A program made the translations under genes and the position numbers. A stretch of DNA of 64,000 bases, taken from an uncultured Flavobacteriaceae bacterium (GTDB lineage Bacteria; Bacteroidota; Bacteroidia; Flavobacteriales; Flavobacteriaceae). The stretch lies in the NCBI GenBank assembly GCA_947494825.1, contig CANLWN010000003.1, forward strand, positions 248,001 to 312,000, given 5' to 3'. Of this stretch, positions 47,927-62,766 are shown in pieces (within the stretch, counting starts at the first letter, position 1; the number at the start of each line of letters is the position of its first letter). Under the pieces are notes generated by a model that was given only the letters and a program-made list of their open reading frames with translations, had not been told where the DNA came from and ran no database searches.

Positions 47927-47969
47927 CTAAGGTAGAACGAACCCCCTTGGGACAAAATGATATTTATCA
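47927..47969 (-). promoter_or_regulatory. FNR-type operator and promoter of hsp20 operon
   Basis: ATGATATTTATCAG with core TGAT-N4-ATCA at 47958-47969; -7 element TACCTTAG at 47927-47934. Centre-to-centre distance is 33 bp. Confidence 0.8.
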
Positions 47970-48000
47970 GTTTGACTCTTGATTTCAATAATTCAAGGAG

Positions 48001-48426
48001 TTATTTTCTTGGTTTTCGTCCTTTTAAAATCCCGCCGGCATAATTGAAGATTTCCGACTTTAAGTTTTGAAAATCCAGTAAACAATCGGCCGCTTCGTTG
48101 CTTAAGTGCCCATGTTTTTTATAGTACTCCAAACTACAGGCCCTATCTGTGCATTCCAATATGCCTCCCAAGTCATTCTCGTGCCTTGTTATATGTCCAC
48201 GGACCACAATCCTTTGGTTATGTATTTGCTTTAGACGGTCTTGATATCCTTGTAGACGTTCAAACAGATTGGGTGTGTTGGGTTCGAACACATACGAATT
48301 CAACAAGCGTTTTATGAAAAGGAGTTCGTCTGCCATAAGACGTAACTGCGATTTCCATTGTTGTGAATCACTGTACAGTTCTGCAAGTTCCTTGTCCTGA
48401 ACACCTCCAATATCATTGTTTTCCAT
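48001..48426 (-). CDS. Helical coiled-coil protein, paralogue B flanking hsp20
   Basis: 141 residues, helical. QQWKSQLRLMADELLFIKRLLNSY and LFERLQGYQDRLKQIHNQ, then ITRHENDLGGIL, follow the same pattern as the protein at 46947-47390. A C-terminal part with CTDRACSLEYYKKHGHLS carries two Cys and two His that the paralogue lacks. Function unknown. It has its own FNR-type promoter and reads toward hsp20, 115 bp away. Confidence 0.75.
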   Translation of the reverse strand: MENNDIGGVQDKELAELYSDSQQWKSQLRLMADELLFIKRLLNSYVFEPNTPNLFERLQGYQDRLKQIHNQRIVVRGHITRHENDLGGILECTDRACSLEYYKKHGHLSNEAADCLLDFQNLKSEIFNYAGGILKGRKPRK

Positions 48427-48445
48427 TGCCTATGCCATTTGTCCC

Positions 48446-48488
48446 ATAAAGTATTCCGAATTCTGGATCCAAACAATGATAAAAATCA
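48446..48488 (-). promoter_or_regulatory. FNR-type operator and promoter of paralogue B
   Basis: ATGATAAAAATCAG with core TGAT-N4-ATCA at 48477-48488; -7 element TACTTTAT at 48446-48453, centre distance 33 bp. Confidence 0.75.
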
Positions 48489-48568
48489 GCGCTCCGACCT
48501 ATTGGGCCGTGATTTCAAAATTGCCTGATCCGTTGGGTATGCCATAAACCGAGGACTAACGGACCCTA

Positions 48569-48976
48569 TTATTTTTTAAAGAAGTCCCGGATTAGGGCCT
48601 TCACTTGGTTGAGGGTCATGCTATCCGCTTTGGCGACCAGTTTTATTTTAGCAGCGAGTTGTTTATGGTTTTCCTGTAGTTCCTTCCTGAATTTCTCATT
48701 GGTGTCCGCGGGCCCATAGATTGCAAGGGCATCCGCCTCTTTTAAGTGATCTGCCAGCTTGTTGAAGTATCCTCTCATTTGATGCTTTTCGCGCTCCAAA
48801 TATTTGCTGTCTTGAACAACGTCCTGCGGTCCCCACTTTGCAGATTTTGTCCCGGAGCCTCCTTTGGGGTTAAAAAACTCCATCTCCGAAAAAATGGTCT
48901 TAAACGTCTCTCCTTCCCAGGTCAGGGTAAGGACATGGGCCTTTTCCTTATCGAGCCAGATTCCTATGTTTTTCAT
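48569..48976 (-). CDS. Small alpha/beta protein, possibly eRF1-like (baeRF-type)
   Basis: 135 residues. Begins IGIWLDKEKAHVLTL, has YLEREKHQMRGYFNKLADHLKEADALAIYGPADTNEKF in the centre and ends MTLNQVKALIRDFFKK. The order of strands and helices, with a nucleotide-free YGPADTNEKF loop, resembles bacterial eRF1/Dom34-like proteins that are often linked to stress and ribosome rescue. This is a weak fold-level impression. It starts 10 bp after a universal stress protein gene and is probably co-transcribed with it. Confidence 0.6.
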   Translation of the reverse strand: MKNIGIWLDKEKAHVLTLTWEGETFKTIFSEMEFFNPKGGSGTKSAKWGPQDVVQDSKYLEREKHQMRGYFNKLADHLKEADALAIYGPADTNEKFRKELQENHKQLAAKIKLVAKADSMTLNQVKALIRDFFKK

Positions 48977-48986
48977 ATGTGTGTTA

Positions 48987-49832
48987 TCAATTAGCGTTCA
49001 ATACTAGAATAGGGATGTTGGCACTGTATCCCAGTTCCTTTACAAGGGGTTTTGACAGCAGGGCATTGAAAAAACCGTGTTTCTCGTTTACAAAGGAAAT
49101 CATATCGCTTTCCCTACTTTGCACAAAGGTATTGATGCCGGTGTGCACCTTAACATCGGTCAGCACATGGCTGCTATAGTCCGTTCCCTCAATGATCTCT
49201 TCCAAAAGCGCTTTGTTGTCCTGCTGTACCGGATCCAATTTGGATTCCCTTTCTACATGTAGTAACCGGATAGGCGCCTTGTGTATTTTGGAAATTTCCA
49301 TCAAGTAATTTAACTCCCTTCTTTTAAAGCCGGTCCTATAATCTGTTGGAAATACAATTTCATTGGGAGGCGAAAAGCGATAATTCTCCGGGATTGCCAA
49401 TACGGGGCAGGTCGTAATGTTCTCCATCACATCAACGGCGTTGGTGCCAAAGATATTGGCAGAGGCACCTGTTGCTCCTTTGGTTCCCATTATGACGAGA
49501 TCAATGTCCTTTTTTGCCACGGTGGTGGAAACAGCGTACAACAAGGAATTAAAGGTTGAAATCGTTTCAAAACTGTGTTTGGGGTTATCTCGCTGAAATT
49601 CCAGAACATCCATTAATTTGGACATCCTTTCCTCCGAAGCTTTTTTGGCGGCTTCGTACCTTTCTTCCCCAGGTTCCGGGACCATCATACTGTCTATGGA
49701 ATACCCGTGCACCTGATAGGCGTTCAAAATATAAAAAGTACACTCCTGCTCCTGGTACAGGTCCAGGGCATAGCGAATGGCGTTGAGTGCATTTTTGGAA
49801 AAATCAGTAGGTAATAGTATCCTCTTGTCCAT
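48987..49832 (-). CDS. Double-domain universal stress protein (1 of 7)
   Basis: 281 residues with two UspA domains (about 1-140 and 148-281). The first has the ATP-loop pattern MGTKGATGASANIFGTNAVDV (G-x2-G then G-[ST/N]) and CPVLAIPEN. The second starts EIVFPTDYRTGFKRRELNYL but lacks the loop, so only the first should bind nucleotide. Usp proteins support survival in stasis, hypoxia and oxidative stress. Upstream is an FNR-type operator; downstream is the small alpha/beta protein gene. Confidence 0.93.
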   Translation of the reverse strand: MDKRILLPTDFSKNALNAIRYALDLYQEQECTFYILNAYQVHGYSIDSMMVPEPGEERYEAAKKASEERMSKLMDVLEFQRDNPKHSFETISTFNSLLYAVSTTVAKKDIDLVIMGTKGATGASANIFGTNAVDVMENITTCPVLAIPENYRFSPPNEIVFPTDYRTGFKRRELNYLMEISKIHKAPIRLLHVERESKLDPVQQDNKALLEEIIEGTDYSSHVLTDVKVHTGINTFVQSRESDMISFVNEKHGFFNALLSKPLVKELGYSANIPILVLNAN

Positions 49833-49856
49833 GGTAGCAGTTTTTAGATTACCCTA

Positions 49857-49899
49857 TAAAAATATAGGGCTCGGACTACGATTCCCATGATAATTATCA
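49857..49899 (-). promoter_or_regulatory. FNR-type operator and promoter of Usp 1
   Basis: ATGATAATTATCAG with core TGAT-N4-ATCA at 49888-49899, overlapping the 3' end of the next upstream Usp gene; -7 element TATTTTTA at 49857-49864, 33 bp centre to centre. Confidence 0.8.
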
Positions 49900-50745
49900 G
49901 TCTTGGCAGGGAACGACCAAAAATGGGACTTCCAGATCAAAATTTACCCGTTTAATGACCGGCTCCCGTAAGAGTTTTTCCAAAAAACCATGTTGGTAGC
50001 TCAGCATAGCCAACATATCAACATCCAATTCCTTTACAAAAAGGCCAATGGCCTCTGCCTTGCTTCCAAAATAAGGCATCCAATGCATGGTACAATCAAT
50101 TGCAGAGAGATATTTACAAAGGGTATCGCAATTGGATTCCTGGTACTTGTCCAATTTCTTCTCCTCATTGACGTGCATGATGCGAACACTACTCTTAAAA
50201 AGGTTGGCCAGGAACCGCAAGGGCTCCAGCTGTTCGGCACAAAAACTGTGTTTATAATCGGTGGCAAAGGCAATTTCCTTTGGGGAGACAAAATCCATTT
50301 CCTTGGGCACTGTTAGGATAGGACATGATCGCAAGCCATTGATGATTTTGGTGGTATTGCTGCCCCAAAAGGTGGCTTTGGCATTGGTCATTCCCTTGTT
50401 GCCCATAACCACAAGATCTATATCCATTTCTGCCACGGTTCTGGAGGCGGTTTCCACGAGGCCGCTATTTTTGGAAATTGTAAGGAAGTTGTGCCTTGGA
50501 TTGTCATTGTCCAGAACAATTCTATGGCAACAATACTGAAGACCTTCTTGGGATTCATCGCCCAGTTGGGCAAGCAACGCCCTCCCTTCGCGTTTAGCTA
50601 TGCGTTTGGTACGCAGCGGCGTGGTTTCGTTAAAGGTGTTCAATAGATAGAAGGTGCAGTCTTTTGACCTTAGCAGCTGTGTTGCATAGAACAGGGCACT
50701 GTAGGCGCTGTTCGAAAAATCGGTAAGGACGAGAATATTTTGCAT
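49897..50745 (-). CDS. Double-domain universal stress protein (2 of 7)
   Basis: 282 residues. Two UspA domains: VLTDFSNSAYSALFYATQLL at the start, VMGNKGMTNAKATFWGSNTTKIINGL as the ATP-loop of the first, and IAFATDYKHSFCAEQLEPLRFLA opening the second, degenerate domain. It differs from its neighbours by more Cys residues and a longer linker. It lies 4 bp after Usp 3 and has no promoter of its own, so the two form an operon. Confidence 0.92.
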   Translation of the reverse strand: MQNILVLTDFSNSAYSALFYATQLLRSKDCTFYLLNTFNETTPLRTKRIAKREGRALLAQLGDESQEGLQYCCHRIVLDNDNPRHNFLTISKNSGLVETASRTVAEMDIDLVVMGNKGMTNAKATFWGSNTTKIINGLRSCPILTVPKEMDFVSPKEIAFATDYKHSFCAEQLEPLRFLANLFKSSVRIMHVNEEKKLDKYQESNCDTLCKYLSAIDCTMHWMPYFGSKAEAIGLFVKELDVDMLAMLSYQHGFLEKLLREPVIKRVNFDLEVPFLVVPCQD

Positions 50746-50749
50746 CGTA

Positions 50750-51598
50750 TTATTTTTTTAGTGTTGGTGGGATGACCATGAAAGGTATGGTGATATGAAA
50801 ACCAATTTTTTTAATGACGGGTTCAATAAAAAGGCGCTCCAAAAAAGTATGTTTGTTCTGGATCATTACCAGTAAGTTTACCTTTTTTTTCATTTGAAAG
50901 TTATTTATTCCCGATATGACATCCTGATTGGGCATATCGTGGAACAAATGTGCAATACCATCCAAAATTTCCTCCAATTCGGCTTTGTTCCGAAGCTGTG
51001 CCTCACCAAGCTCATAGCCCGTTGAAATATGCACTACCTCAACCCTGGAAATATGCTCCCTTGCAAGATCCAGCAGTTGATCCAGTTGTACCGCCTTGTA
51101 GTCTACCTCATAGTCTGTTGGAAATAAGATTTCCTTGGGGGTTTCATAATCAAAGTGTGGAGGAATCGCAATTACCGGACAACCCGCTTTTTTTATGACA
51201 TGGACCGTATGGGTGCCCAAAAATATCTCCTTGGCCCCTGTAGCGCCTTGCGTTCCCATGATAATCAGATCTATATGCTCCTTCTGTACCATGTCTACTA
51301 TTTCATCGACCAAAAGGTTAAAGGCGGCATGCGGTACAAAGAGGTGTTTCGGATTGTTAAAGTCCTCATGCAGTTGGTCCATCAACTTCTGCAGTTGTGA
51401 GAGCGCCCTGGTCTGGTGTACATCGCCCAGACCTACCTGTCCCGGACTATGGAGCACATACTCTGCTTGATAAATTGCCGGGGTATAGGTATGCACCAAA
51501 TAAAAGGCACATTCCTCGTTCTTAAAAAGTTTGAGGGCATAACATATGGCGTTATAGGCGTTGTCCGAAAAGTCGGTGGGGAGCAAAATCTTTTTCAT
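50750..51598 (-). CDS. Double-domain universal stress protein (3 of 7)
   Basis: 282 residues. First domain with LLPTDFSDNAYNAICYALKLF and loop MGTQGATGAKEIFLGTHTVHVI; second domain from ILFPTDYEVDYKAVQLDQLLDLA, without the loop. Its promoter shares a 119-bp divergent spacer with the thioredoxin gene and carries an FNR-type operator with an exact TATTTTTG -7 element. Confidence 0.93.
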   Translation of the reverse strand: MKKILLPTDFSDNAYNAICYALKLFKNEECAFYLVHTYTPAIYQAEYVLHSPGQVGLGDVHQTRALSQLQKLMDQLHEDFNNPKHLFVPHAAFNLLVDEIVDMVQKEHIDLIIMGTQGATGAKEIFLGTHTVHVIKKAGCPVIAIPPHFDYETPKEILFPTDYEVDYKAVQLDQLLDLAREHISRVEVVHISTGYELGEAQLRNKAELEEILDGIAHLFHDMPNQDVISGINNFQMKKKVNLLVMIQNKHTFLERLFIEPVIKKIGFHITIPFMVIPPTLKK

Positions 51599-51623
51599 TT
51601 TTTAGCGTTTTTGGATTACCATT

Positions 51624-51666
51624 CAAAAATAGAATCGAGACGCCCCAAAAACCATGATATTCGTCA
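51624..51666 (-). promoter_or_regulatory. FNR-type operator between Usp 3 and thioredoxin
   Basis: ATGATATTCGTCAG with core TGAT-N4-GTCA at 51655-51666. For Usp 3 the -7 element is TATTTTTG at 51624-51631, centre distance 33 bp. Toward thioredoxin only TAAATTG (51689-51695) is present, so control in that direction is less sure. Confidence 0.8.
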
Positions 51667-51716
51667 GTTGGCCTTAGCGGTATTTTCTTAAATTGCACGT
51701 ATTAAATCCTAAGTGC

Positions 51717-52019
51717 ATGCAAAGCAATTTCAAAACGGTCATTACCTCAGGTCCTTTGGTGCTCGTTGATTTTTATGCCGATTGGTGCGGCCCATGTAAG
51801 GTGTTGGCACCCATTTTAAAGGAAGTAAAGCAAGACTTGGGCGACATGATCAAAATTGTAAAGATCGATGTGGACAAAAACCAAAAAATCTCCAATAGGT
51901 ACCAGATCAGGGGTGTACCCACCCTACTGTTGTTTCAAAACGGAACCTTGGTGTGGCGACAGTCCGGTATACTACAAAAGAACGATTTGATCAAAATCAT
52001 ACAATCATATACCCCCTGA
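51717..52019 (+). CDS. Thioredoxin
   Basis: 100 residues. Classic active site DFYADWCGPCKVLAPIL near residue 25 and cis-Pro in IRGVPTLLLFQNG. It reduces disulfides using thioredoxin reductase, which is not encoded here. I place the start at ATG 51717; the frame extends upstream only to a TTG. Divergent from Usp 3 across a shared FNR-type operator, so it may be a regulon member. Confidence 0.93.
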   Translation: MQSNFKTVITSGPLVLVDFYADWCGPCKVLAPILKEVKQDLGDMIKIVKIDVDKNQKISNRYQIRGVPTLLLFQNGTLVWRQSGILQKNDLIKIIQSYTP

Positions 52020-52050
52020 AATCCGGATTCTTGGATTAACCTCGGCGATG

Positions 52051-52890
52051 CTACTCGTGAAGCACCAAGAAAGGGACATCCGTGTGGTAGCTAATTTCCT
52101 GGACCGCAGGCCTTAAAAGCACTCGCTGTAAAAAGTTCACGTTCTTGGCGACCATGGAGATCATGTCCAAATCCCTGCTTTCCACAAAACACTGTACCGC
52201 TGTTTCCAGTTTTTTACTGGTCACTCTATGAAAACTGTGTTCCAAGTCCTTAAAGTAGTCGTGGAGGAATGCCTTGTTCTTATGTTGTTCACTATCCAAT
52301 TCCTCGCCTTTTCCGGAAATGTACAATACCCGTAGTGCAGCATGGTGCATTTGGACTATTTCTATCAAGGTGTCGAGCACTTTTATATCATAGCTCAAAT
52401 TAAAATCCGTGGGAAATCCTATTTCCTTGGGTTTTTTGTATTCGGCATTTTCTGGAACCGCCAAAACGGGGCATTTCACTTTGGTTATGACATCGGCCGT
52501 ATTGCTGCCCATGGTTACCTTTTTGAGGCCCGAAGCCCCTTTGGTTCCCATAACGATCAGGTCTATCTTCTTGTCGGCTATTTGTTTGCGAATGGCATCG
52601 ACAAAGAAATCATATACCGTAAGGGTCTCAAAACGGTGTTCGGTATTCACAGTGAGTTGTTCAATACGTTTCAACACTTCGTCCAAACGTTCTTGGCTCT
52701 CCTGTAAAACGGCCTCTTCCAACACCTTGGAAGAGCCTACAATGGAAGTTTCGGCACCGGAATAGGGCGCAATGGCGTTGATATGGAACAGATAAAAAAC
52801 GCAGGGTGTTCTTTGAAAGAGTTCCTTTGCATACTGTACCGCATTCCACGAATTATCGGAAAAATCAACGGGGATCAAAACATTTTTCAT
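52051..52890 (-). CDS. Double-domain universal stress protein (4 of 7)
   Basis: 279 residues. First domain VLIPVDFSDNSWNAVQYAKELF and loop MGTKGASGLKKVTMGSNTADVI; second domain from IGFPTDFNLSYDIKVLDTLIEI. ATG 52890 is the start: the predicted transcription start is near 52912, so an ATG at 52986 in the same frame would be outside the transcript and its peptide is not Usp-like. Confidence 0.93.
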   Translation of the reverse strand: MKNVLIPVDFSDNSWNAVQYAKELFQRTPCVFYLFHINAIAPYSGAETSIVGSSKVLEEAVLQESQERLDEVLKRIEQLTVNTEHRFETLTVYDFFVDAIRKQIADKKIDLIVMGTKGASGLKKVTMGSNTADVITKVKCPVLAVPENAEYKKPKEIGFPTDFNLSYDIKVLDTLIEIVQMHHAALRVLYISGKGEELDSEQHKNKAFLHDYFKDLEHSFHRVTSKKLETAVQCFVESRDLDMISMVAKNVNFLQRVLLRPAVQEISYHTDVPFLVLHE

Positions 52891-52917
52891 AACCACATTA
52901 CTTATCGTTGTCACCGG

Positions 52918-52960
52918 TAAAAATACGATCGGCCCCCAGAAGCTAAAATGACAAAAATCA
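52918..52960 (-). promoter_or_regulatory. FNR-type operator and promoter of Usp 4
   Basis: ATGACAAAAATCAT with core TGAC-N4-ATCA at 52949-52960; -7 element TATTTTTA at 52918-52925, 33 bp centre to centre. A second operator for the divergent gene lies 7 bp away. Confidence 0.8.
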
Positions 52961-52967
52961 TGTGAAC

Positions 52968-53010
52968 TGACATTGGTCATTTCCACAAAGCCCCTATGGC
53001 CTTATATTCA
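52968..53010 (+). promoter_or_regulatory. FNR-type operator and promoter of HMA-like gene
   Basis: CTGACATTGGTCAT with core TGAC-N4-GTCA at 52968-52979; -7 element TATATTCA at 53003-53010, 33 bp centre to centre. The predicted start near 53015 lies after ATG 52996, which decides the start of the gene at 53026. Confidence 0.75.
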
Positions 53011-53025
53011 ATAACAAAAAAACGT

Positions 53026-53292
53026 ATGAGAGCCTTGGCAAAAATTCAGCACCTCAGGTCCGACGCCTGCAAGCAAAAGATTATCAGAAACCTCAGTCGG
53101 CTCATGGATATCCGTATTATCGACATTGATGTGGACAATCAGATGATCTTCTTTCTCTTTGAGGGGCCATTGGCATTTCATAGGGTAAAGCAAGAACTCT
53201 GGCGGATCGGTTATCCCATAATAAAGTACAAATGCCAGAACGGGAAATCCTTCCTAAGCCGTAGTGAGATGTTTGATCAAGCCTTAGCCTAG
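53026..53292 (+). CDS. Small HMA-like protein
   Basis: 88 residues. Begins MRALAKIQHLRSDACKQKIIRNLSR, where the order strand-loop-helix mirrors a heavy-metal-associated domain but with only one Cys in the loop, then IRIIDIDVDNQMIFFLFEG and a helix ending LWRIGYPI as in HMA folds. It likely binds a metal weakly or not at all. Located between two Usp genes with its own FNR-type promoter. Role unknown. Confidence 0.65.
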   Translation: MRALAKIQHLRSDACKQKIIRNLSRLMDIRIIDIDVDNQMIFFLFEGPLAFHRVKQELWRIGYPIIKYKCQNGKSFLSRSEMFDQALA

Positions 53293-53367
53293 TCCAACAC
53301 TTTACAGCATATCCAAAAACCTGGCCCAGTCCTAAAGGGCCGCATTCTTCATTGTTCCATTATAGGA

Positions 53368-54213
53368 TTATCTGGGTAGGTTCTGCATGACCAGAAAGGG
53401 AACGCTCACGGTAAGTCCAATTTGGTCCACAGTAGACCGGTACAACATATTCTCTAAAAGGGAATGGCGCGAATTTACCATGACCAGCATATCTATATGA
53501 TCTTTGGCGATATGTTCCAAAATGATCTGCACCCTGTCCTCACCTTCGCATTGTTTAAAAAACAGAAACGCACTGGATAAGGTATTTTGCAGAAAGAGCT
53601 TGTTGTCTTCTTGACGGAACGACAATTTCTTCAGGGCGGAAATGTATAGACAATGTATTTCTGATTTGAAGGAGCCTGCCAGTTCGTTGAGCAATTTCAA
53701 TTCCCTCCGTTTAAAGGGCAACATGTAGTCCGTGGGGAACAGTATTTTTTTGGGTGGCTGGTAGGCATACTCCTCAGGAATGGCCAGCACGGGGCATTTT
53801 ACGTATTTTAACACTTGTACCGTATGACTGCCCAAGATGGTCCTTTTATCCGATGTAACCCCTTTTGTGCCCATTACGATTAAATCGATATCCACCTGAT
53901 CCACAAAATCGTTTACCGCATCGACCAAGGATTCGAAGGCCGACACTACCTGATAGGAATGTTTCGGGTTTGGAAATTCTTCTTCCAATTCGGAAAGCAA
54001 TTGGTCCAGCGATGTATCGGTCTTTTTGCGCACCTCCTTTCTTCGTTGTTTTAAACTATCCCGGGTCCCGGATTTGCTCAATTCGTATACTTCATCGGCA
54101 TAAGCGTGCAAAAAGTAAAAGTTGGCCCTTTCCAACTTAAAGAGTTTTAGGGCATGGTGGATCGCATGCAGTGCATTGTCGGAAAAATCAGTAGGAATCA
54201 ATATGATCTGCAT
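53368..54213 (-). CDS. Double-domain universal stress protein (5 of 7)
   Basis: 281 residues. First domain ILIPTDFSDNALHAIHHALKLF and loop MGTKGVTSDKRTILGSHTVQVL; second from ILFPTDYMLPFKRRELKLLNELA. ATG 54213 is favoured: its -7 element (TAACTTTG, 54238-54245) places transcription start near 54232, after an alternative ATG at 54240. Confidence 0.93.
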   Translation of the reverse strand: MQIILIPTDFSDNALHAIHHALKLFKLERANFYFLHAYADEVYELSKSGTRDSLKQRRKEVRKKTDTSLDQLLSELEEEFPNPKHSYQVVSAFESLVDAVNDFVDQVDIDLIVMGTKGVTSDKRTILGSHTVQVLKYVKCPVLAIPEEYAYQPPKKILFPTDYMLPFKRRELKLLNELAGSFKSEIHCLYISALKKLSFRQEDNKLFLQNTLSSAFLFFKQCEGEDRVQIILEHIAKDHIDMLVMVNSRHSLLENMLYRSTVDQIGLTVSVPFLVMQNLPR

Positions 54214-54237
54214 TTGTACGGTCTTTTCTTTGACGGC

Positions 54238-54280
54238 CAAAGTTATGTGCTATGGGAGGTGAAAACTATGATATTTATCA
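54238..54280 (-). promoter_or_regulatory. FNR-type operator and promoter of Usp 5
   Basis: ATGATATTTATCAG with core TGAT-N4-ATCA at 54269-54280, identical in core to the hsp20 site; -7 element TAACTTTG (exact) at 54238-54245, 33 bp centre to centre. Confidence 0.85.
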
Positions 54281-54306
54281 GTACCATAGCTGATAGAAAT
54301 TGTCGC

Positions 54307-55143
54307 TTAGCCGTGGATGACCAAAAAGGGCACCTGGGTATGGAAACTCACTTTTTCCACGGTGGAATCGAAAAGTAGCTGTTGTAAAAAATTGAGGTTC
54401 TTGGCCACCATAATGGTAAGATCACTCTGTTTTTCTGAGATGAATTCCTGTATTCCTTGAGTAATTTTTCGGTTATCAATGAGATAAAAACTGTGCTGTT
54501 TTGGAAATATCTCCTCCAGGTAATCCTGTAGATACGCTCTGTTGTTTTGCTGATCTTCGGATAGGTTTTCCGTGCTCCCCGCCACATGAAGGACTTTGAG
54601 GTGCGCTTTGTTGGCAACAACGAGCTCTGACAACGTCTCCAAAATGGCATGCGAATAGAAAATATTATAATCGGTCGGAAAGGTGATCGTCCGTGGTCTC
54701 CCATAAACTACATGTTCCGGGACTACTAGGGTATTGCATTGTACCTTGGTTATAATATCACCGGTATTACTTCCAATAATAAGCCGTTTTATCCCTGACG
54801 CCCCCTTGGTTCCCATGACGATCAGGTCTATTTTCTTTTCCTTGACCAATCTGCGGGTCACATCTATAAGCAGGCCATAATGCAGTTCCGGGAAAAAATG
54901 GTGTAGTTCGCTCTCGGCTTTATTTTTGGCCCGTTCCGTAAAGGCATCGAGCTTGTCTTTTGAAGGTATGCCGGTTTCGCCAAGGCTGGGCGTAAATGAA
55001 AGCCCCATTACTGGGTATTCGCTCAAAGGTGCAACATGGAGTAGATAAAAATTACAATGGACCCCCTTAAAAAAGCCGAGCGCATATTTTAGGGCGTTCC
55101 AAGCATTTGGTGAAAAATCGGTGGGAATCAATATATTTTTCAT
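54307..55143 (-). CDS. Double-domain universal stress protein (6 of 7)
   Basis: 278 residues. First domain ILIPTDFSPNAWNALKYALGFF and loop MGTKGASGIKRLIIGSNTGDII; second from ITFPTDYNIFYSHAILETLSELV. Closest in loop sequence to Usp 4. An FNR-type operator with an exact TACATTTG -7 box lies upstream. Confidence 0.93.
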   Translation of the reverse strand: MKNILIPTDFSPNAWNALKYALGFFKGVHCNFYLLHVAPLSEYPVMGLSFTPSLGETGIPSKDKLDAFTERAKNKAESELHHFFPELHYGLLIDVTRRLVKEKKIDLIVMGTKGASGIKRLIIGSNTGDIITKVQCNTLVVPEHVVYGRPRTITFPTDYNIFYSHAILETLSELVVANKAHLKVLHVAGSTENLSEDQQNNRAYLQDYLEEIFPKQHSFYLIDNRKITQGIQEFISEKQSDLTIMVAKNLNFLQQLLFDSTVEKVSFHTQVPFLVIHG

Positions 55144-55174
55144 TGGATAAGCGACCTACTGGATACTACAAAAG

Positions 55175-55217
55175 CAAATGTATTGGGATAGGTCCAAGGG
55201 AAATATGACTAAAATCA
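55175..55217 (-). promoter_or_regulatory. FNR-type operator and promoter of Usp 6
   Basis: ATGACTAAAATCAT with core TGAC-N4-ATCA at 55206-55217; -7 element TACATTTG (exact) at 55175-55182, 33 bp centre to centre. Confidence 0.85.
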
Positions 55218-55293
55218 TATTATTGGGGCGGTTGGGCAAAAATTTGAGCGCTTTCCAAAGGGCTTGATCCACCCTTTTCAGCATGCTCTGCAG

Positions 55294-56346
55294 CTATTCT
55301 ATACCATGCAGTGCCCTTAATTGTAAAATTTTGATGTTCCTGCCCTCAATATCTATAAGTCCTTCTTTTTTGAATCCGGAAAGTGTCCGGATCAAACTTT
55401 CTGTGGCAATACCGGCCACGCTGGCAAGGTCACTGCGGGAAATGCGAATAGGTTCCTCAGGGTTTTTGTTCAGGACCTCGGCAAACTGAAGCAGGGTTTG
55501 CGCGGTTTTTTTCCGGACAGAGCTATAGGCCATTTGGAGGAGTTGCTCTTTGATTTCCGAAATATTGTCGGTGAGCAATTCCATCAATTCCAGTGAAACA
55601 TTGTGGTTTTTTTCCAAAATACCTTTCATGCTTTCCTTGGAAATACCTGCCAGTTCCGCGTCTTCCACTGCCGAGGCCGATTCCTGGTAGGGAAGGTTGT
55701 CCAGAAAGGAGGTAAAGCCCAAAAAATCATCGGCAGGATGTAGGGAAGTGATCAATTCCTTCCCATCCTCATCCATCTTATGGCATTTTACTACCCCTTC
55801 TAAAATAAGAAAAATCTTGTTGGAATGCTCCCCTTCATTGTAAATAGGGCTTCCCTTTTTATAGGTATGGACATCCCCGTGGTCATCAAAAAAATTCTTC
55901 AGTTCGTTCAAGGTACGCATCTGCGCCTCGGCATCCACGGACAAAGGTGTCTGATTCCTACCCAAACGGGTCATAATCTCTGCCTTGGCCAACCTGCTTT
56001 CTATGGCGCTCATCAGGTCTACTTCCTCAAAGGGTTTGGTAAGGTAGTCATCGGCCCCAAGGTCCATCCCTTTGCGCACCTCCTTGTGCTCCGTTTTGGC
56101 CGAAAGAAAAATAAAGGGGATATGTTGGGTGGCCGCATCTGAGGAAAGTTGCTGCAACACACCATACCCATCAATCTCGGGCATCATGATATCACATACC
56201 ACAATATCGGGATGCTGTTCCCTAGCCAGGTCTATACCTATCTTGCCATTCGGGGCAGTAATAACCTCATAATCGGAAAGCTCCAACAATTCGGCCGTAT
56301 TTTCCCTTAAGGCGGTATCATCCTCTATCAATAGTATTCTTTTCAT
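55294..56346 (-). CDS. Response regulator: receiver fused to Crp/Fnr DNA-binding unit
   Basis: 350 residues. Receiver domain 1-120 with acidic pair EDD (8-10), phospho-acceptor D52 in CDIMMPEIDG, S82 and K104. A cNMP-type barrel spans about 140-255 and a Crp-type HTH about 265-345 (ISRSDLASVAGIATESLIRTLSGF). The recognition helix ATESLIR matches that of the FNR-like protein at 61978-62667 (ATESTIR), so both probably read the same operators. The gene follows its histidine kinase by 3 bp. This combines in one polypeptide what rhizobia split into FixJ and FixK. Confidence 0.9.
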   Translation of the reverse strand: MKRILLIEDDTALRENTAELLELSDYEVITAPNGKIGIDLAREQHPDIVVCDIMMPEIDGYGVLQQLSSDAATQHIPFIFLSAKTEHKEVRKGMDLGADDYLTKPFEEVDLMSAIESRLAKAEIMTRLGRNQTPLSVDAEAQMRTLNELKNFFDDHGDVHTYKKGSPIYNEGEHSNKIFLILEGVVKCHKMDEDGKELITSLHPADDFLGFTSFLDNLPYQESASAVEDAELAGISKESMKGILEKNHNVSLELMELLTDNISEIKEQLLQMAYSSVRKKTAQTLLQFAEVLNKNPEEPIRISRSDLASVAGIATESLIRTLSGFKKEGLIDIEGRNIKILQLRALHGIE

Positions 56347-56349
56347 GGG

Positions 56350-57495
56350 TTACGGCTCTGGATTCATTGGTATTTCCACGGTAAAGGTAGACCCTTTGTT
56401 TTCCTGACTATTAAAGGTAATGCATCCACCTAAATTTTCAATATGTTGCTTCACAATATTCAACCCGATTCCCGTGCCTTGACTCAATAAGGCATTTTTG
56501 GCCCTGAAATACCGATTAAAAATAAACTTTTGATCACTTTCCGGAATCCCCATGCCCTGGTCGATAATTTTCATTATCAGATTGTTCCCTTTCTGACGAA
56601 TCTGTATATCGATCACCGTATCCTCGGACGAATACTTTATGGCATTGTGGACCAAATTGGACAGGATGAGCTCCAGTATTTTCTCATCGCAGGTAATGAC
56701 AAAGTCATCGATCTGTTCGGGGTACTGAATCTGTTGCCCTACCTTAAGCAGCATATTGGCATCATAGATGACCTGGTTCACCAATTTGCTCAAGGGAAAA
56801 GTGGTAAATCTATAATTTACCTTCCCTGTCTCCAGGCGCTCAACGGATAAAAAATCGTTGAGAATGGTATCCAGGTATTTTACCTTGTTGCGAATGGTAT
56901 CTATATGCTTGTTCCTTTTTTCCTGCTGTTCGGTCTGGGTGTATTTGGATAAAAGCGTAGTAGAGGTGAGGATACTGCTCAAGGGTGTTTTGAATTCATG
57001 GGAAACCAAGGACAGGAAGCGTGTTTTGAGTTCATTGAGTTCCCGTTCCTTGGATAGTGCTTCCTGAAGTTGTTCGGTACGCTCCTTGACCTCAAGCTCC
57101 AAACGCTCCGTATAGTTTCGGCGTTCCGTGATATCCACGATCAAGGCCATCACATAGGTATTCCCGTACAGACTAAATGGATTTAGGCCTACTTCCAAGG
57201 GAAACTCCTCCCCATTTTTCCGAATACCGTAGAGCTCACGGCCCTGGCCCATGGGACGTCTTTGGCTCCTGTTCATGAAGTCTTTGAAGTGTCCCTTGTG
57301 CGCATGGTGGTAACTGGCGGGAATGAGAAGTTCCAGGTGGTTTCCGACAAGTTCGTCCTTTTCGTATCCGAACATTTCCTCCGTGGACGAATTATTGGCA
57401 ACAATCAATTGTTTCTCGTTCACCACAATGATACCTTCCGATACCCCCTCGGAAAGCAGATTAAAAATATTGCTGTTTTTCTGAAAAACCTTCAT
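56350..57495 (-). CDS. Soluble PAS-domain histidine kinase, FixL-like
   Basis: 381 residues with no membrane helix. PAS domain about 12-125, ending ALIVDITERR; coiled linker; H-box with H166 in LSLVSHEFKTPLS; N-box ELILSNLVHNAIKYS; G1 IDQGMGIPE; G2 GTGIGLNIVKQH. In the PAS, H66 (in YHHAHKGHF) and R86 (in GQGRELYG) fall where FixL has its heme ligand His and the conserved Arg, so an oxygen-sensing heme PAS is possible but unproven; these residues also occur in non-heme PAS domains. It is the partner of the REC-Crp regulator encoded 3 bp downstream. Confidence 0.88.
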   Translation of the reverse strand: MKVFQKNSNIFNLLSEGVSEGIIVVNEKQLIVANNSSTEEMFGYEKDELVGNHLELLIPASYHHAHKGHFKDFMNRSQRRPMGQGRELYGIRKNGEEFPLEVGLNPFSLYGNTYVMALIVDITERRNYTERLELEVKERTEQLQEALSKERELNELKTRFLSLVSHEFKTPLSSILTSTTLLSKYTQTEQQEKRNKHIDTIRNKVKYLDTILNDFLSVERLETGKVNYRFTTFPLSKLVNQVIYDANMLLKVGQQIQYPEQIDDFVITCDEKILELILSNLVHNAIKYSSEDTVIDIQIRQKGNNLIMKIIDQGMGIPESDQKFIFNRYFRAKNALLSQGTGIGLNIVKQHIENLGGCITFNSQENKGSTFTVEIPMNPEP

Positions 57496-57518
57496 GCCAT
57501 AAAGTTAAACCATATAAC

Positions 57519-57561
57519 TGATTTTTGTCATAAAAAACCCTAGGTATAGCTTCTATTTTTG
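57519..57561 (+). promoter_or_regulatory. FNR-type operator and promoter of TerB/deo operon
   Basis: CTGATTTTTGTCAT with core TGAT-N4-GTCA at 57519-57530; -7 element TATTTTTG (exact) at 57554-57561, 33 bp centre to centre. In the other direction the 33-bp position lies inside the kinase gene, so the kinase is not served by it. Confidence 0.85.
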
Positions 57562-57581
57562 AAACAGAAAATGACAACGCT

Positions 57582-57989
57582 ATGAACATGATGGAATCGC
57601 AGCGGATTGGAAACGAGTTTTACCAAAATTTGGGGAAGCTTTTTTATGCCGTAGCCATGGCTGATCAAAGTATTCATGCCAAGGAAATGGATACGCTAAG
57701 AGAGGAAGTAAGATCGTATTGGTTGCAGGTAGATGCCGTTGAGGACGAATTTGGCACCGATGCCGCATTTCAAATCGAAACGGTATTCGATTGGCTGTTG
57801 GAGTACGGAAAGGACAGCGGAAGCTGTTTTGATGATTTCGCGACCTTTTACCAGGAGCACCATGAAAAGTTCAGCCCCAAGGTAAAGCGATTGGTGATGG
57901 ATACGGCCCATGCCATTGCCGCGGCCTTTGCGCGAAAGAACAAATCCGAATTGATTATCTTGGCCAAACTAAAGTTATTGCTGCAATAG
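57582..57989 (+). CDS. TerB-like helical protein
   Basis: 135 residues, all helical. FYQNLGKLFYAVAMADQSIHAKEMDTLREEV resembles the TerB/DjlA-like core with its acidic DxxIHxxE motif (MADQSIHAKE), and SPKVKRLVMDTAHAIAAAFARKNKSE is the matching second repeat. TerB-type proteins are linked to metal and membrane stress. It is the first gene of an operon with the CoA-transferase, deoC and deoD, and has an exact FNR-type promoter. Confidence 0.75.
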   Translation: MNMMESQRIGNEFYQNLGKLFYAVAMADQSIHAKEMDTLREEVRSYWLQVDAVEDEFGTDAAFQIETVFDWLLEYGKDSGSCFDDFATFYQEHHEKFSPKVKRLVMDTAHAIAAAFARKNKSELIILAKLKLLLQ

Positions 57990-58024
57990 ATGCAGATCAA
58001 CCATAGCCATTAAGCATCCAAACT

Positions 58025-59311
58025 ATGCCCGCTACCCTAAAAATTGTTGCAGCCGAAGAGGCGGTTGCCTGTGTAAAATCGGGAAATCGCGTTTTCTTTC
58101 AAGGTGCTGCCATGACACCGAACGTGTTGATCGATGCGCTCTGCGATCGCTATAGAGATCTGGAAGACATCGAGATTATTCAAATGCACACGGAAGGCCA
58201 GGCCAAATATACCTCGGAACCTTACACTGATGCATTTCGAATAAGCAGTTGCTTTGTGGGCGGTAACGTTCGAAAGGCAATAGATTCCGCCAAAGGCGAC
58301 TATATCCCTATTTTTTTGAGCGAAATACATTTGCTGTTCAGGCGGGAGATCCTGCCCTTGGATGTTGCCTTTATCCAGGTATCGCCCCCAGATAAACACG
58401 GATATTGTTCCCTTGGTACTTCCGTAGATGTCACCTTGCCCGCTATACAGACCGCCAAGAGGGTCATTGCGCAAGTGAATCCCCAAGTACCCAGAACCCA
58501 TGGGGACGGTATCATACACATAAGGCAAATTGATAAAGCCATAGAGGTAGATAAGCCCATATATAGCAGTCAGATCAACGGAATGACCGATGTTGAACGA
58601 AAAATTGGAGCACATGTGGCCGAGCTGATCGAGGATGGCGCCACCCTACAAATGGGTATCGGCAATATTCCCAATGCCGTACTGAACAATTTGCACGGTC
58701 ACAGAAGATTGGGTATTCATACGGAGATGTTTTCCGATGGTATCCTACCCTTAGTGGAAAAAGGGATTATTACAGGAGAGGACAAGGAAATTAAAACCGG
58801 AAAAATCGTTACCTGCTTTGCTGTAGGTACCCAGGCGCTATATGACTTCGTTCATGATAACCCCAGTGTACATTTTAAAGAAGCCGCCTTTACCAATGAT
58901 ACAGCCGTTATTCGACAAAATCCAAAAGTGACCGCGATCAACAGTGCCATTGAAATAGATCTCACCGGCCAGGTATGTGCGGATACGATCGGCACCTATC
59001 AATACTCTGGCGTTGGGGGACAAATGGATTTCATCCGCGGGGCCTCCCTATCCGAAGGAGGCAAACCTATAATCGCCATGCCTTCCCTTACCCATAAGGG
59101 CGTTTCCAAAATCACCCCCTTTCTTAAACATGGGGCCGGGGTAACCACCACTAGGGCTCACGTGCACTACGTGGCCACGGAATACGGGGTAGTGAACCTT
59201 TTTGGAAAAAGTTTGGAACAACGGGCCAAGGCCCTTATTTCCATAGCCCATCCAGACCATCGGCAAGTACTGGAGGAGCAGGCATTTGAACGTTTTAAAA
59301 CCCTTGTATGA
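58025..59311 (+). CDS. Acetyl-CoA hydrolase/4-hydroxybutyrate CoA-transferase family protein
   Basis: 428 residues, full length. VFFQGAAMTPNVLIDAL near the start, VSPPDKHGYCSLGTSVD near 125, LQMGIGNIPNAVL near 210 and the catalytic Glu in IHTEMFSDGILPL near 237, then GVGGQMDFIRGASLSEGG. The family moves CoA between acetate and other acyl groups. Lying between a TerB-like gene and deoC, it may recycle acetyl-CoA or acetate formed from the acetaldehyde that DeoC releases; that is inference. It overlaps deoC by 4 bp. Confidence 0.88.
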   Translation: MPATLKIVAAEEAVACVKSGNRVFFQGAAMTPNVLIDALCDRYRDLEDIEIIQMHTEGQAKYTSEPYTDAFRISSCFVGGNVRKAIDSAKGDYIPIFLSEIHLLFRREILPLDVAFIQVSPPDKHGYCSLGTSVDVTLPAIQTAKRVIAQVNPQVPRTHGDGIIHIRQIDKAIEVDKPIYSSQINGMTDVERKIGAHVAELIEDGATLQMGIGNIPNAVLNNLHGHRRLGIHTEMFSDGILPLVEKGIITGEDKEIKTGKIVTCFAVGTQALYDFVHDNPSVHFKEAAFTNDTAVIRQNPKVTAINSAIEIDLTGQVCADTIGTYQYSGVGGQMDFIRGASLSEGGKPIIAMPSLTHKGVSKITPFLKHGAGVTTTRAHVHYVATEYGVVNLFGKSLEQRAKALISIAHPDHRQVLEEQAFERFKTLV

Positions 59312-59976
59312 AGCCCATACCCCTACAACAATACATAGACCATACCCTCTTGGGCGCCACCGCCACCCTATCGGCCATAGAAAACCTCTGTCAGGAGGCA
59401 CGGACCCATGGCTTTTACGCGGTCTGTGTAAACGGTTGCCATGTTGGCACCGCGCATAAGGAGCTGGCGGATACCGCAATAAAAATAGCCGCTGTGGTGG
59501 GTTTTCCCTTAGGGGCCAACAGCACACGGACCAAGGTGTTCGAAGCCGTGGATTGTATGGAAAACGGAGCGGACGAAATAGATATGGTCATCAATCTGGG
59601 GTGGCTAAAATCTGGCGAGACCGATCAGGTGTTGCAAGAGATCCAAGCGGTAAAAAAGGCCATTGGCGATGTGGTTTTAAAAGTCATTATAGAGACCGCC
59701 TATCTCACTACCGAAGAAAAGAAAAAAGCATGTGCCTTAGTGGTAGAGGCAGGGGCAGATTTTGTAAAAACCTCCACAGGTTTTGGGCCTGGAGGGGCTA
59801 CCCTTGACGATGTCCGCCTGATGAAGGAGGTCGTAGGGGACAAGGCCCGTATTAAGGCCTCCGGCGGCATCAAGGATAGGGCCACCGCCCTACGTTATAT
59901 TGAACTTGGCGTTTCCCGGATCGGCACTTCCTCCGGTATCGCCCTGCTTGCACAAGACGAAAATCAAAGCCCATGA
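59308..59976 (+). CDS. deoC: Deoxyribose-phosphate aldolase
   Basis: 222 residues. YIDHTLLGATAT at the start, the Schiff-base Lys in VVLKVIIETAYL (near 135) and the second Lys in DFVKTSTGFGPGGAT, then IKASGGIKDRATAL. It splits 2-deoxyribose-5-phosphate to glyceraldehyde-3-phosphate and acetaldehyde. Overlaps its neighbours by 4 bp on both sides, so the three genes are tightly coupled. Phosphopentomutase, the usual partner, is absent here. Confidence 0.95.
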   Translation: MKPIPLQQYIDHTLLGATATLSAIENLCQEARTHGFYAVCVNGCHVGTAHKELADTAIKIAAVVGFPLGANSTRTKVFEAVDCMENGADEIDMVINLGWLKSGETDQVLQEIQAVKKAIGDVVLKVIIETAYLTTEEKKKACALVVEAGADFVKTSTGFGPGGATLDDVRLMKEVVGDKARIKASGGIKDRATALRYIELGVSRIGTSSGIALLAQDENQSP

Positions 59977-60671
59977 GTTTACATATCGCCGCAAAAAAAG
60001 GGGAAATCGCAGAGACCGTCCTACTCCCCGGAGACCCCTTACGCGCCAAATGGATCGCTGAAACTTTTTTGGAAGACCCCATCTGCTACAACGAAATCCG
60101 AGGCATGTTGGGTTATACTGGAATTTATGGAGGAAAACGGGTATCGGTACAGGGCAGTGGTATGGGTATTCCATCGTCCCTCATCTACTGTCATGAACTT
60201 ATCACGGCCTACGGTGTTAAAAACCTGATTCGCGTGGGTACTGCGGGATCCTATCAAAAAGAGGTAAAAATCCGGGACATTGTGCTGGCCATGGCCGCCT
60301 CTACGACCTCTAGCATCAACCACTCAAAATTTAAGCATGCGAACTATGCCCCCACGGCCAGCTTTGAACTGTTTATGAAGGCCGTGCAGTATGCCAAGGA
60401 CCACCAAATCCCCATTACCGCCGGCAATGTACTTTCTTCCGATGTGTTCTACGCGGACGATCCGGAATCTTATAAACTGTGGGCAGCCTACAATGTGCTA
60501 TGTGTAGAAATGGAGGCCGCCGGCCTCTATACCCTGGCCGCAAAGCACGGGGTCCGGGCCCTGGCCATTTTGACCATTTCGGACTCCCTGGTCACGGGGA
60601 AAGGGGCCAGCCCGGAAGAACGGGAGACAGGCTTTAGCGAAATGGTGCGTATTGCCATGGGAACGCTGTAA
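59973..60671 (+). CDS. deoD: Purine-nucleoside phosphorylase (DeoD type)
   Basis: 232 residues. LLPGDPLRAKWIAETFL, the phosphate-binding IRVGTAGSYQKEVKIRD, CVEMEAAGLYTLAAKHG and LAILTISDSLVTG are the motifs of the hexameric E. coli-type enzyme. It phosphorolyses purine (deoxy)nucleosides to base and (deoxy)ribose-1-phosphate. Last gene of the TerB/CoA-transferase/deoC/deoD operon. Confidence 0.95.
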   Translation: MSLHIAAKKGEIAETVLLPGDPLRAKWIAETFLEDPICYNEIRGMLGYTGIYGGKRVSVQGSGMGIPSSLIYCHELITAYGVKNLIRVGTAGSYQKEVKIRDIVLAMAASTTSSINHSKFKHANYAPTASFELFMKAVQYAKDHQIPITAGNVLSSDVFYADDPESYKLWAAYNVLCVEMEAAGLYTLAAKHGVRALAILTISDSLVTGKGASPEERETGFSEMVRIAMGTL

Positions 60672-60774
60672 CTTGTAGCAGCGAGCCAGACCGTCCCTGC
60701 CCAAGGGGCGGCCTAAAAATAGCATTTCCTTAACATCAAAATCTACATTTTCTAGCTATTTTAAAGCAAAAAAC

Positions 60775-60993
60775 ATGCGCACCTCCGTCTTTTTCTGGGT
60801 AATCGCTACCACATTGGTTTTAATCTTGGTGACAGCAACGGCAAGCATGGGATTTCCCTTCAACTGGGTATTCTACCTCACCGTCGCCGGACAACTAATG
60901 CTCGTTTATATGGTTTATAGGGTATTGACGGATGGCTACACCACTGAAAAGACCTTTGAGGATTTCTATGAGGACCGGCCGCTAGACCGATAG
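60775..60993 (+). CDS. Small two-helix membrane protein
   Basis: 72 residues. Two membrane helices (FFWVIATTLVLILVTATASMG and WVFYLTVAGQLMLVYMVYRVL), then an acidic tail TFEDFYEDRPLDR. I do not recognise it. It lies 103 bp after deoD in the same direction and faces Usp 7 tail to tail. No operator is visible before it, so it is either read through from deoD or has its own promoter. Confidence 0.65.
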   Translation: MRTSVFFWVIATTLVLILVTATASMGFPFNWVFYLTVAGQLMLVYMVYRVLTDGYTTEKTFEDFYEDRPLDR

Positions 60994-60994
60994 A

Positions 60995-61897
60995 CTAGCT
61001 TAGCATTAGGTTTTTGCCTTTCTTTTTAGGCTTGGGAGATACCCCCATGCCCAGCTCCGGGATAACCAACAGGGGTATTTGCGTGTGAAAGGCCACCCGC
61101 TTAATAATCGGTTCACGCGTCATCTTTTCCAGATAGCTGTGCTGATAATGCAACATGGCCAGCAGATGTATTCCCAGTTCATTTGTAAACACTTCAAGTG
61201 TCTTGGAGACGGAATTAAGCTCTGTAACCGTATGCACGTAATGCGGTAGGTCTCCCAGGTATTTGCGCAGCATCTCCAAGTTAAACTGTTGTATCTCGGT
61301 CAGGGCCTTAATTTCATATTGTACATGCACAATTCTCAAGGTGGCGTCGAACGCCCTGGCCAAATCGATCAGCGGTTGCAGTTCCGAAAGTGTGTAAAAC
61401 CGGTTAAAGTCCGTGGCGAATGCAATTTCGGAGGGGGTCGCATATTCAAAATCCATGGGGATGGCCAAAACCGGGCAACGTTTGATCGATTTTATGATGC
61501 GTACGGTATTGCTCCCCATAAAAACCTCCTCTATCCCAGAGGCACCCTTGGTTCCGGTTACGATAAAATCTATTCCCTCTGAATCCACTATGTCCCTTAT
61601 AGCTTCTACCAATAGGCAAAAAGAGGATACTGTTTTGAAACGATGGTTCGGATACTGATTCCTTTTTTTTATTTTGGCCTGTAGGTTTTGTAATCCCTTC
61701 TCCGAATTGGAACGGATAATATCATCCACCCCGGGATCCTGGATCGTACTTGCCATAAAACGATTGTGTGCAAAGGTAGGGGTATAGGTATTCAACAAAT
61801 AAAATGTGCATTCCTCACCTTTGAACAGTTCAATGGCATATTTGGTGGCATTCCATGCGTTTTCCGAAAAATCTGTAGGCACCAATATCTTCCTCAT
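60995..61897 (-). CDS. Double-domain universal stress protein (7 of 7)
   Basis: 300 residues. First domain ILVPTDFSENAWNATKYAIELF and loop VTGTKGASGIEEVFMGSNTVRII; second from IAFATDFNRFYTLSELQPLIDLA. A Lys-rich tail (SPKPKKKGKNLMLS) extends about 15 residues beyond the others. Its second domain is most like that of Usp 2 (shared MLHYQHSYLEKM / MLSYQHGFLEKL). Own FNR-type promoter. Confidence 0.93.
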   Translation of the reverse strand: MRKILVPTDFSENAWNATKYAIELFKGEECTFYLLNTYTPTFAHNRFMASTIQDPGVDDIIRSNSEKGLQNLQAKIKKRNQYPNHRFKTVSSFCLLVEAIRDIVDSEGIDFIVTGTKGASGIEEVFMGSNTVRIIKSIKRCPVLAIPMDFEYATPSEIAFATDFNRFYTLSELQPLIDLARAFDATLRIVHVQYEIKALTEIQQFNLEMLRKYLGDLPHYVHTVTELNSVSKTLEVFTNELGIHLLAMLHYQHSYLEKMTREPIIKRVAFHTQIPLLVIPELGMGVSPKPKKKGKNLMLS

Positions 61898-61924
61898 GGC
61901 AATTTCTTGAATAATTTATAGGGG

Positions 61925-61967
61925 TAAAAATAGGTAGGGTCCAAAGTGAAAACTATGACTTATGTCA
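61925..61967 (-). promoter_or_regulatory. FNR-type operator and promoter of Usp 7
   Basis: ATGACTTATGTCAG with core TGAC-N4-GTCA at 61956-61967; -7 element TATTTTTA at 61925-61932, 33 bp centre to centre. Confidence 0.8.
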
Positions 61968-61977
61968 GGTTATGGAT

Positions 61978-62667
61978 CTAGAAACCGGACGCTAAGTCCC
62001 TGAGTTTTTTTTCATGGGCAATGGCAATCTTCTTGCCAGAAGTGGTAATGAAGCCTTTCTTTTTGAATTCCGAAATGATACGAATGGTAGATTCAGTGGC
62101 GGTGCCCACCACGTTGGCAATATCCTCACGGGATAGGGTGAGGGCCAGAAAACCATCCGCATCCTCCCCAAAATTACTTTTTAGGTACAAAAGTGCCTCT
62201 GCCATACGCTGTTTTACGGTCTTTTGGGAGATGTTCACAATCACGTCATCGGCTTCCCGAAGGTCATGGGCCATATGCCGAAGGACTTCTAGGGTAAAAT
62301 CGGGGTTTTTGTGCATTGTGGAAAGGATAGTGTCCTTGGGAATAAAACACATTTCCATATCGCTGACAGCCACAGCGCTCAGATTGGTACACTCATCCGC
62401 CACGACGGAACGTTGCCCTATTACCTCCCCTTTAGTGGCCAATTTTACAATCTGGTCTTTGCCGTTTGCACTGAGTTTGGAAAGTTTGGAAACACCATTG
62501 CGCACACAGAAAACACCGTTCAGTTTTTCGCCTTCCTGGAAAATGGAAGCCCCTTTTTTGATAATTTTGGTGGTTTTGGTATCGGAAACTCTTTTCAATT
62601 CTTCCTTGCTCATGGCGCGTAAGGAATTAAACTGACGGATGATACAATTTTCACACCTACTTTCCAT
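61978..62667 (-). CDS. FNR-like Crp-family regulator
   Basis: 229 residues. N-terminal RCENCIIRQF (C5, C8) as in Bacteroidota FNR-like proteins, cNMP-type barrel about 25-140, HTH about 170-215 with SREDIANVVGTATESTIRIISEF. In E. coli FNR the recognition helix uses Glu, Ser and Arg to read TTGAT; here Glu and Arg are kept and Ser is Ile, which may relax the first base and fits the NTGAY half-sites seen. ATG 62667 is chosen because the predicted transcription start is near 62687. Divergent from ccoI. It is the best candidate for the activator of the island, and its promoter has a site too. Confidence 0.9.
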   Translation of the reverse strand: MESRCENCIIRQFNSLRAMSKEELKRVSDTKTTKIIKKGASIFQEGEKLNGVFCVRNGVSKLSKLSANGKDQIVKLATKGEVIGQRSVVADECTNLSAVAVSDMEMCFIPKDTILSTMHKNPDFTLEVLRHMAHDLREADDVIVNISQKTVKQRMAEALLYLKSNFGEDADGFLALTLSREDIANVVGTATESTIRIISEFKKKGFITTSGKKIAIAHEKKLRDLASGF

Positions 62668-62692
62668 AGTCCTAGAGGTTTTACCTGACGCG

Positions 62693-62766
62693 CAAAGGTA
62701 ACCTTCCATATAGAAAGAAAAACTGATATATATCATGTTTTTAGCAAGAAGTGGTTTGCACCTTTG
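62693..62766. promoter_or_regulatory. FNR-type operator with two divergent promoters (fnr-like and ccoI)
   Basis: CTGATATATATCAT with core TGAT-N4-ATCA at 62724-62735. Leftward, TACCTTTG (exact) at 62693-62700; rightward, CACCTTTG at 62759-62766. Both -7 centres are exactly 33 bp from the operator centre. Confidence 0.85.

Follow-up and report, generated by a model that had tools for sequence, protein, structure and literature searches.

The window analysed here, a 64,000-bp stretch of the genome of an uncultured marine Flavobacteriaceae bacterium (GenBank assembly GCA_947494825.1, contig CANLWN010000003.1, positions 248,001 to 312,000), carries a repeated palindromic operator with the core TGAY-N4-RTCA and the genes of two CRP/FNR-type proteins that may read it. 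One is an FNR-like regulator (61978..62667, minus strand). The other is a fusion of a response regulator receiver with a cyclic nucleotide (cNMP) fold and a CRP helix-turn-helix (HTH; 55294..56346, minus strand), and it adjoins the gene of a PAS histidine kinase (56350..57495, minus strand). The genes downstream of the operators encode Hsp20, Usp-type proteins, hypothetical proteins, an HMA-like protein, a CoA-transferase, DeoC and a nucleoside phosphorylase, the FNR-like regulator and a ccoI-like ATPase. We consider it probable that the sites form a class II low-oxygen regulon in which the two regulators encoded in this island, the FNR-like protein and the kinase-driven fusion, act on one operator.

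Operators and promoter boxes

We paired the core with the octamer TAnnTTTG, scored over its six fixed letters; a spacer of 23 bp between the two corresponds to 33 bp from centre to centre. The original prediction listed twelve operators, each at this distance from an octamer resembling the -7 box, and all twelve pairs are present where they were placed, every one with a spacer of 23 bp. The twelve are, however, a selection from 17 cores in the window. Four further cores (4584, 43785, 51988 and 58929) have no octamer of at least 4/6 letters at spacer 23, and core 17736 has a 5/6 octamer (TCCTTTTG) but lies 2.4 kb from the nearest script-called gene start on the same strand.

Octamers matching all six letters stand in the promoters at 51624..51666 (minus strand; operator 51655, box TATTTTTG; Usp gene 50750-51598), 54238..54280 (minus; operator 54269, box TAACTTTG; Usp-like gene ending at 53368), 55175..55217 (minus; operator 55206, box TACATTTG; Usp gene 54307-55143), 57519..57561 (plus; operator 57519, box TATTTTTG; genes 57582-60671 for a hypothetical protein, CoA-transferase, DeoC and PNP/UDP phosphorylase) and 62693..62735 (minus; operator 62724, box TACCTTTG), the last being the predicted promoter of the FNR-like gene itself. 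Five letters match at 15329..15371 (minus; operator 15360, GTGACTTTGGTCAC, box TAACTTTA; SQR-like gene 14106-15308), 47927..47969 (minus; operator 47958, box TACCTTAG; Hsp20 gene 47451-47885), 49857..49899 (minus; operator 49888, box TATTTTTA; Usp gene 48987-49832), 52918..52960 (minus; operator 52949, box TATTTTTA; Usp-like gene ending at 52051) and 61925..61967 (minus; operator 61956, box TATTTTTA; Usp gene 60995-61897). Operator 62724 is shared, as predicted, with a second, divergent box, also 5/6 (CACCTTTG, first T missing), in the predicted promoter of the ccoI-like P-type ATPase gene (62724..62766, plus). Just four letters match at 48446..48488 (minus; operator 48477, box TACTTTAT; hypothetical protein 48001-48426) and 52968..53010 (plus; operator 52968, box TATATTCA; HMA-like protein ending at 53292). 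This HMA-like protein has a weak CsoZ match below the cut-off and probably starts within its listed open reading frame. The six Usp-type genes have one site each; Pfam confirms four of them, and the two ending at 53368 and 52051 are assigned by similarity to the Usp-like proteins of relatives.

The pairing extends beyond the window. Across the 4.54-Mb genome the core occurs 331 times and its backwards control 108 times, and a scan for TAnnTTT[AG] at spacers of 8-38 bp gives 51 core/octamer pairs, of which 31 have a spacer of exactly 23 bp; the fixed-spacer pattern also returns 31. Nineteen of these 31 fall within C3:297-355 kb, an island of about 57 kb. We then profiled the spacing in the 164 kb around the window (C3:228-392 kb), using oriented cores, octamers of at least 5/6 and spacers up to 59. 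An octamer stands at spacer 23 for 25 of the 72 oriented cores, while the other 59 spacers average 0.54 (Poisson p about 1e-32). By comparison, a 400-kb background from the same genome has an octamer at spacer 23 for 0 of 46 oriented cores, and its 23 cores come close to the predicted chance rate of one per 16 kb. Four altered palindromes give nothing at spacer 23 in the C3 stretch (0/14, 0/28, 0/10 and 0/16) and 1/34, 1/58, 0/38 and 0/44 in the background.

AT-rich intergenic DNA could in principle place octamers near common palindromes by chance, and the two 4/6 boxes among twelve selected sites would fit that. Such an origin is nevertheless scarcely credible in view of a single sharp peak at spacer 23 in these same neighbourhoods, the empty background and a fixed-spacer pair that occurs 1677 times in 120 Flavobacteriaceae genomes against 63 times for the backwards control; we reject it on the spacing profile and the controls.

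A logo was built from 30 of 46 promoter rows, those in which the octamer scores at least 5/6 and a gene starts no more than 60 bp away, and reads A-x-[CA]-TGAY-N4-RTCA-T-x-TTT-N19-TAnnTTT[GA]. The upstream outer base of the operator is C (0.53) or A (0.40) and never T, giving the core consensus [CA]TGAY-N4-RTCAT. In excerpts of the Flavobacterium psychrophilum start-site map, the sigma-A octamer occupies positions -12 to -5 (PMC9723704). Combined with the 33-bp centre distance, this places the predicted operator centre at -41.5, so that the class II activator geometry of the original prediction (centre near -41) is borne out as far as those excerpts go. The T-rich stretch past the operator sits at the expected place of the -33 element, and the called start codon follows the predicted start site by 11-30 nt in 32 of the 46 rows.

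Operator 62724 could be followed through 80 close relatives. In the 68 that have the core, the first letter of the ccoI-side box (62759-62766 in the window) is never T (C in 61, A in 4, G in 3); in 67 of these relatives the divergent gene was identified as ccoI. Conservation of this weak box suggests that the promoter has been kept reliant on its activator. An octamer of at least 5/6 is aimed at the FNR-like gene from the operator before it in 55 of the 80. General autoregulation of the FNR-like gene was considered and dropped: the core is found in all 67 loci with divergent ccoI and in locus L125, where ccoI was not found, and in none of the 12 others.

Two regulators and their recognition helix

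The FNR-like protein has a cNMP-type fold and a CRP-family HTH (Pfam PF00027 and PF13545), matches solved FNR chains at E about 1e-22, and has a predicted structure of medium confidence (pLDDT 73) that resembles CRP/FNR structures. Its cysteines 5, 8, 54 and 107 are present in all 77 sequences compared, the query plus 76 of the 80 closest relatives (from at least 558; four were dropped because no frame was found). In E. coli FNR the cluster cysteines are 20, 23, 29 and 122. In an alignment with A. fischeri FNR, C5, C8 and C107 coincide with cluster cysteines and C54 with an alanine, and the third cysteine of the CxxC-x5-C run, aligned with E. coli C29, is replaced by Asn14; three of the four aligned positions are thus cysteines. 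From this pattern we infer that C54 would be the stand-in for the missing fourth ligand. The NCBIfam Fnr model scores 104 bits, against a cut-off of 228. The classical FNR operator is TTGAT-N4-ATCAA, from which the logo departs in its outer base. With E. coli and A. fischeri FNR (5e44, 9qlt) the protein shares the CRP/FNR fold, an N-terminal CxxC and a cysteine at the aligned position of C122, and with class II FNR promoters its sites share the -41.5 position (here predicted) and oxygen-related targets. The Asn at C29, the extra invariant Cys54, the outer base that is not T and the TAnnTTTG box are different. Judged by its sequence, the protein is not a standard FNR.

The PAS domain of the kinase is closest to the heme-PAS domains of FixL and DosP among solved structures, with FixL as the top PDB match (6.5e-14) and DosP next. 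The columns that we take to be the heme-ligand His and FixL R220 are kept in 5/5 sequences (the query and four orthologs), and the kinase adjoins the fusion in all four inspected genomes that have the fusion and no FNR-like match. A second kinase/response regulator-CRP pair, L164 (G253:C1:1835001-1855000), with helix GTATETAIR, lies in a second site-bearing gene cluster; it keeps the His column and has lost the Arg column. Read towards the kinase, operator 57519 is followed by a TAACTTTA octamer at spacer 11 and stands 23 bp ahead of the kinase start codon (57495-57530), and in three of four fusion-only relatives an operator stands 24-38 bp before the kinase start. In that position operator 57519 might serve as a repressor site of the kinase/fusion operon.

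The recognition helices, ATESTIR in the FNR-like protein and ATESLIR in the fusion, share the form ATES-x-IR. The genome has eight CRP-HTH matches, six of them above the cut-off and two inside the window. Five other paralogs carry TSREVISR, TSRVVVSR, TSRQTVSN, TVRSLNR and KPESLSR, so that none of the others among the seven matches covered has ATES-x-IR. In CRP the G ahead of TGA is contacted by the Arg of such helices, and in FNR the outer T by a Ser; the lack of both here would explain why the outer operator base is free.

A cAMP-CRP-type carbon regulon would also account for the cNMP-binding fold of both proteins and for the TGA-N6-TCA spacing, which is common to CRP and FNR sites. Carbon sensing is moreover predicted for Flavobacteriales CRP/FNR homologs in an excerpt of one paper (PMC8510549). 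We nevertheless regard a carbon regulon as very improbable, given the four invariant cysteines of the FNR-like protein, the FixL-like PAS kinase next to the fusion and targets made up of low-oxygen respiration and dormancy-type genes.

Known low-oxygen systems resemble the low-oxygen regulon proposed here in part. FixL-FixJ has a LuxR-type response regulator output, which is not found here, where the output is a cNMP fold with a CRP HTH. In mycobacteria, the two-component regulator DosR controls a similar set of genes at low oxygen, for Usp proteins, a chaperone of the Hsp20 type and dormancy functions, with an output of LuxR/NarL type rather than the CRP/FNR type seen here. Rhizobium leguminosarum, with hFixL-FxkR-FixK and FnrN, likewise combines a FixL-type path with an FNR-type sensor; as far as excerpts of that study go, the two have different oxygen sensitivity and drive one cbb3 operon, and the FixL path also raises fnrN (PMC7888657). 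That network belongs to another phylum, and here receiver and CRP/FNR output lie in one protein, which would merge two of its steps.

Distribution and targets across Flavobacteriaceae

In the 120 genomes we counted a regulator as absent when no match reached E<=1e-40 (FNR-like) or 1e-70 (fusion, with the best 17 candidates per genome scored). Both regulators occur in 27 genomes (median 25 pairs), only the FNR-like protein in 44 (median 10.5), only the fusion in 27 (median 14, every one with at least six pairs) and neither in 22 (median 1). Each regulator class differs from the genomes with neither at p<1e-7, values that overstate the significance as the genomes are not independent. At least one pair is found in 165 of 198 genomes of a class-wide sample.

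The fusion-only genomes also bear on whether the FNR-like protein alone reads the operators, the fusion reading other sites and co-occurring through a shared stress island. The octamers aimed at the FNR-like gene in close relatives would agree with this, and FNR-like proteins below the threshold could hide in 'fusion-only' genomes, as G248 illustrates (below). We think it unlikely, because all 27 such genomes keep their pairs with no FNR-like match, the genes behind the sites there are homologs of hemN, ccoI, cytochrome c or usp, the recognition helices of the two proteins match, and the other CRP-HTH proteins of fusion-only G224 and G253 lack the ATES helix (two G224 matches left out).

Beyond the window, sites stand before cytochrome c genes, a hemN-like gene of the radical-SAM kind, an S30AE gene of the ribosome hibernation type, a COX1-family (ccoNO-type) gene whose leader is 221 nt long and a DUF302 gene 249 nt from its site; DUF2267, M50 peptidase and Rrf2 regulator genes have boxes of 4/6 only. 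Excerpts of the start-site study report higher expression of cbb3 oxidase and heme synthesis genes in oxygen-limited F. psychrophilum (PMC9723704). Across nine relatives, in stretches picked because they contain a regulator or have many sites, homologs of the organism's own targets follow 39 of the 62 sites. Targets of the hemN, ccoI, cytochrome c and usp types recur in both fusion-only and FNR-like-only genomes, and S30AE in fusion-only ones.

The predicted single regulon thus stands for Hsp20, Usp, the HMA-like protein, the deo-type operon and the ccoI-like gene; the SQR-like gene may fall outside it. The operator of this gene at 15360 has the form GTGAC-N4-GTCAC at the same 23-bp geometry, a form found at six sites in the genome (three with the 23-bp box) and, as a pair, 35 times across 26 of the 120 genomes, with 0 in the control. 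Eight of 30 variant loci, including the organism's own C2:624618, precede the same metallo-beta-lactamase-fold gene, a candidate persulfide dioxygenase. Eight of the 30 hold a relative of the CRP paralogs L153/L154, and in this organism L154 and the C2:624618 gene belong to one gene string. Besides the metallo-beta-lactamase-fold gene, the genes that follow variant sites in relatives encode an FAD reductase, a small membrane protein or a small cysteine-rich protein, and a CRP paralog is often encoded close by. The variant is perhaps the mark of a second class II regulon, and 15360 may be under another CRP-family protein; we judge its membership in the same regulon less likely, since this operator precedes another gene set in relatives. 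Against a separate regulon, none of the 30 variant loci holds an SQR-like relative, the FAD reductase and small cysteine-rich protein genes, preceded by the GTGAC form in relatives, have the plain form here, and C1:520478 has no gene close by.

Several observations sit poorly with one operator read by two island regulators. Twelve of the 80 relatives have no core before the FNR-like gene, the pairs at C1:520478 and C3:527417 have no nearby gene start, and a norC-like gene (C5:188468-188511, site C5:188500) has its TATTTTTA octamer at spacer 24, not 23. Among the 22 genomes in which neither regulator was found, G245 (82% complete, 6% contaminated) has 29 pairs, and its three CRP-HTH proteins have no ATES helix. 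Another of the 22, G248, with 5 pairs, encodes an FNR-like protein so diverged (33% identity, helix TTEEQVIR) that it falls below the threshold, which indicates that such proteins can be missed. Fewer than five pairs occur in 6 of the 44 FNR-like-only genomes, and 23 of the 62 sites in the nine relatives lead to no homolog of a target here. With these points counted, one class II (-41.5) CRP/FNR-type low-oxygen regulon remains well supported by the sequence comparisons.

Proposed mechanism and meaning

Spacing, enrichment, clustering, conservation, co-occurrence, the shared helix and the conserved residues are the observations from which we propose DNA binding, activation, oxygen as signal, cofactors and kinase-regulator pairing. 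A CRP/FNR-type dimer would bind TGAY-N4-RTCA centred at -41.5 and recruit the flavobacterial sigma-A polymerase at the TAnnTTTG box, as in class II activation, and the two island-encoded regulators would read the one operator through the same recognition helix. The FNR-like protein presumably holds an oxygen-labile Fe-S cluster via its four invariant cysteines, and the fusion is presumably phosphorylated by the adjoining FixL-like kinase once the kinase heme loses oxygen. Low oxygen would then switch on hemN, cytochrome c, Hsp20, many Usp proteins, the ribosome-hibernation protein and a high-affinity oxidase together with the ATPase that assembles it.

Two oxygen sensors converging on one operator is the likeliest reading. 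In its fuller form, to which we lean slightly, a single Flavobacteriaceae regulon would be served by two chemically different sensors: an FNR with a relocated fourth Cys ligand (C5, C8, C54, C107) and a heme-PAS kinase that acts through a receiver-CRP/FNR fusion, in which the FixJ and FixK steps are merged, both with the same helix and operator. Lineages would keep either or both, the sensor being swapped while the -41.5 promoters stay. We found no description of this operator or regulon in Bacteroidota in the accessible text of the open-licence PMC literature, subscription papers lying outside the search. The promoter grammar of operator, 23 bp and TAnnTTTG could be used to predict low-oxygen genes across the family. 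For FNR-type clusters the system would supply a different set of ligands that can be put to the test, and it would be an example from nature of fixed promoters that two sensors share and on which one may perhaps take the place of the other.

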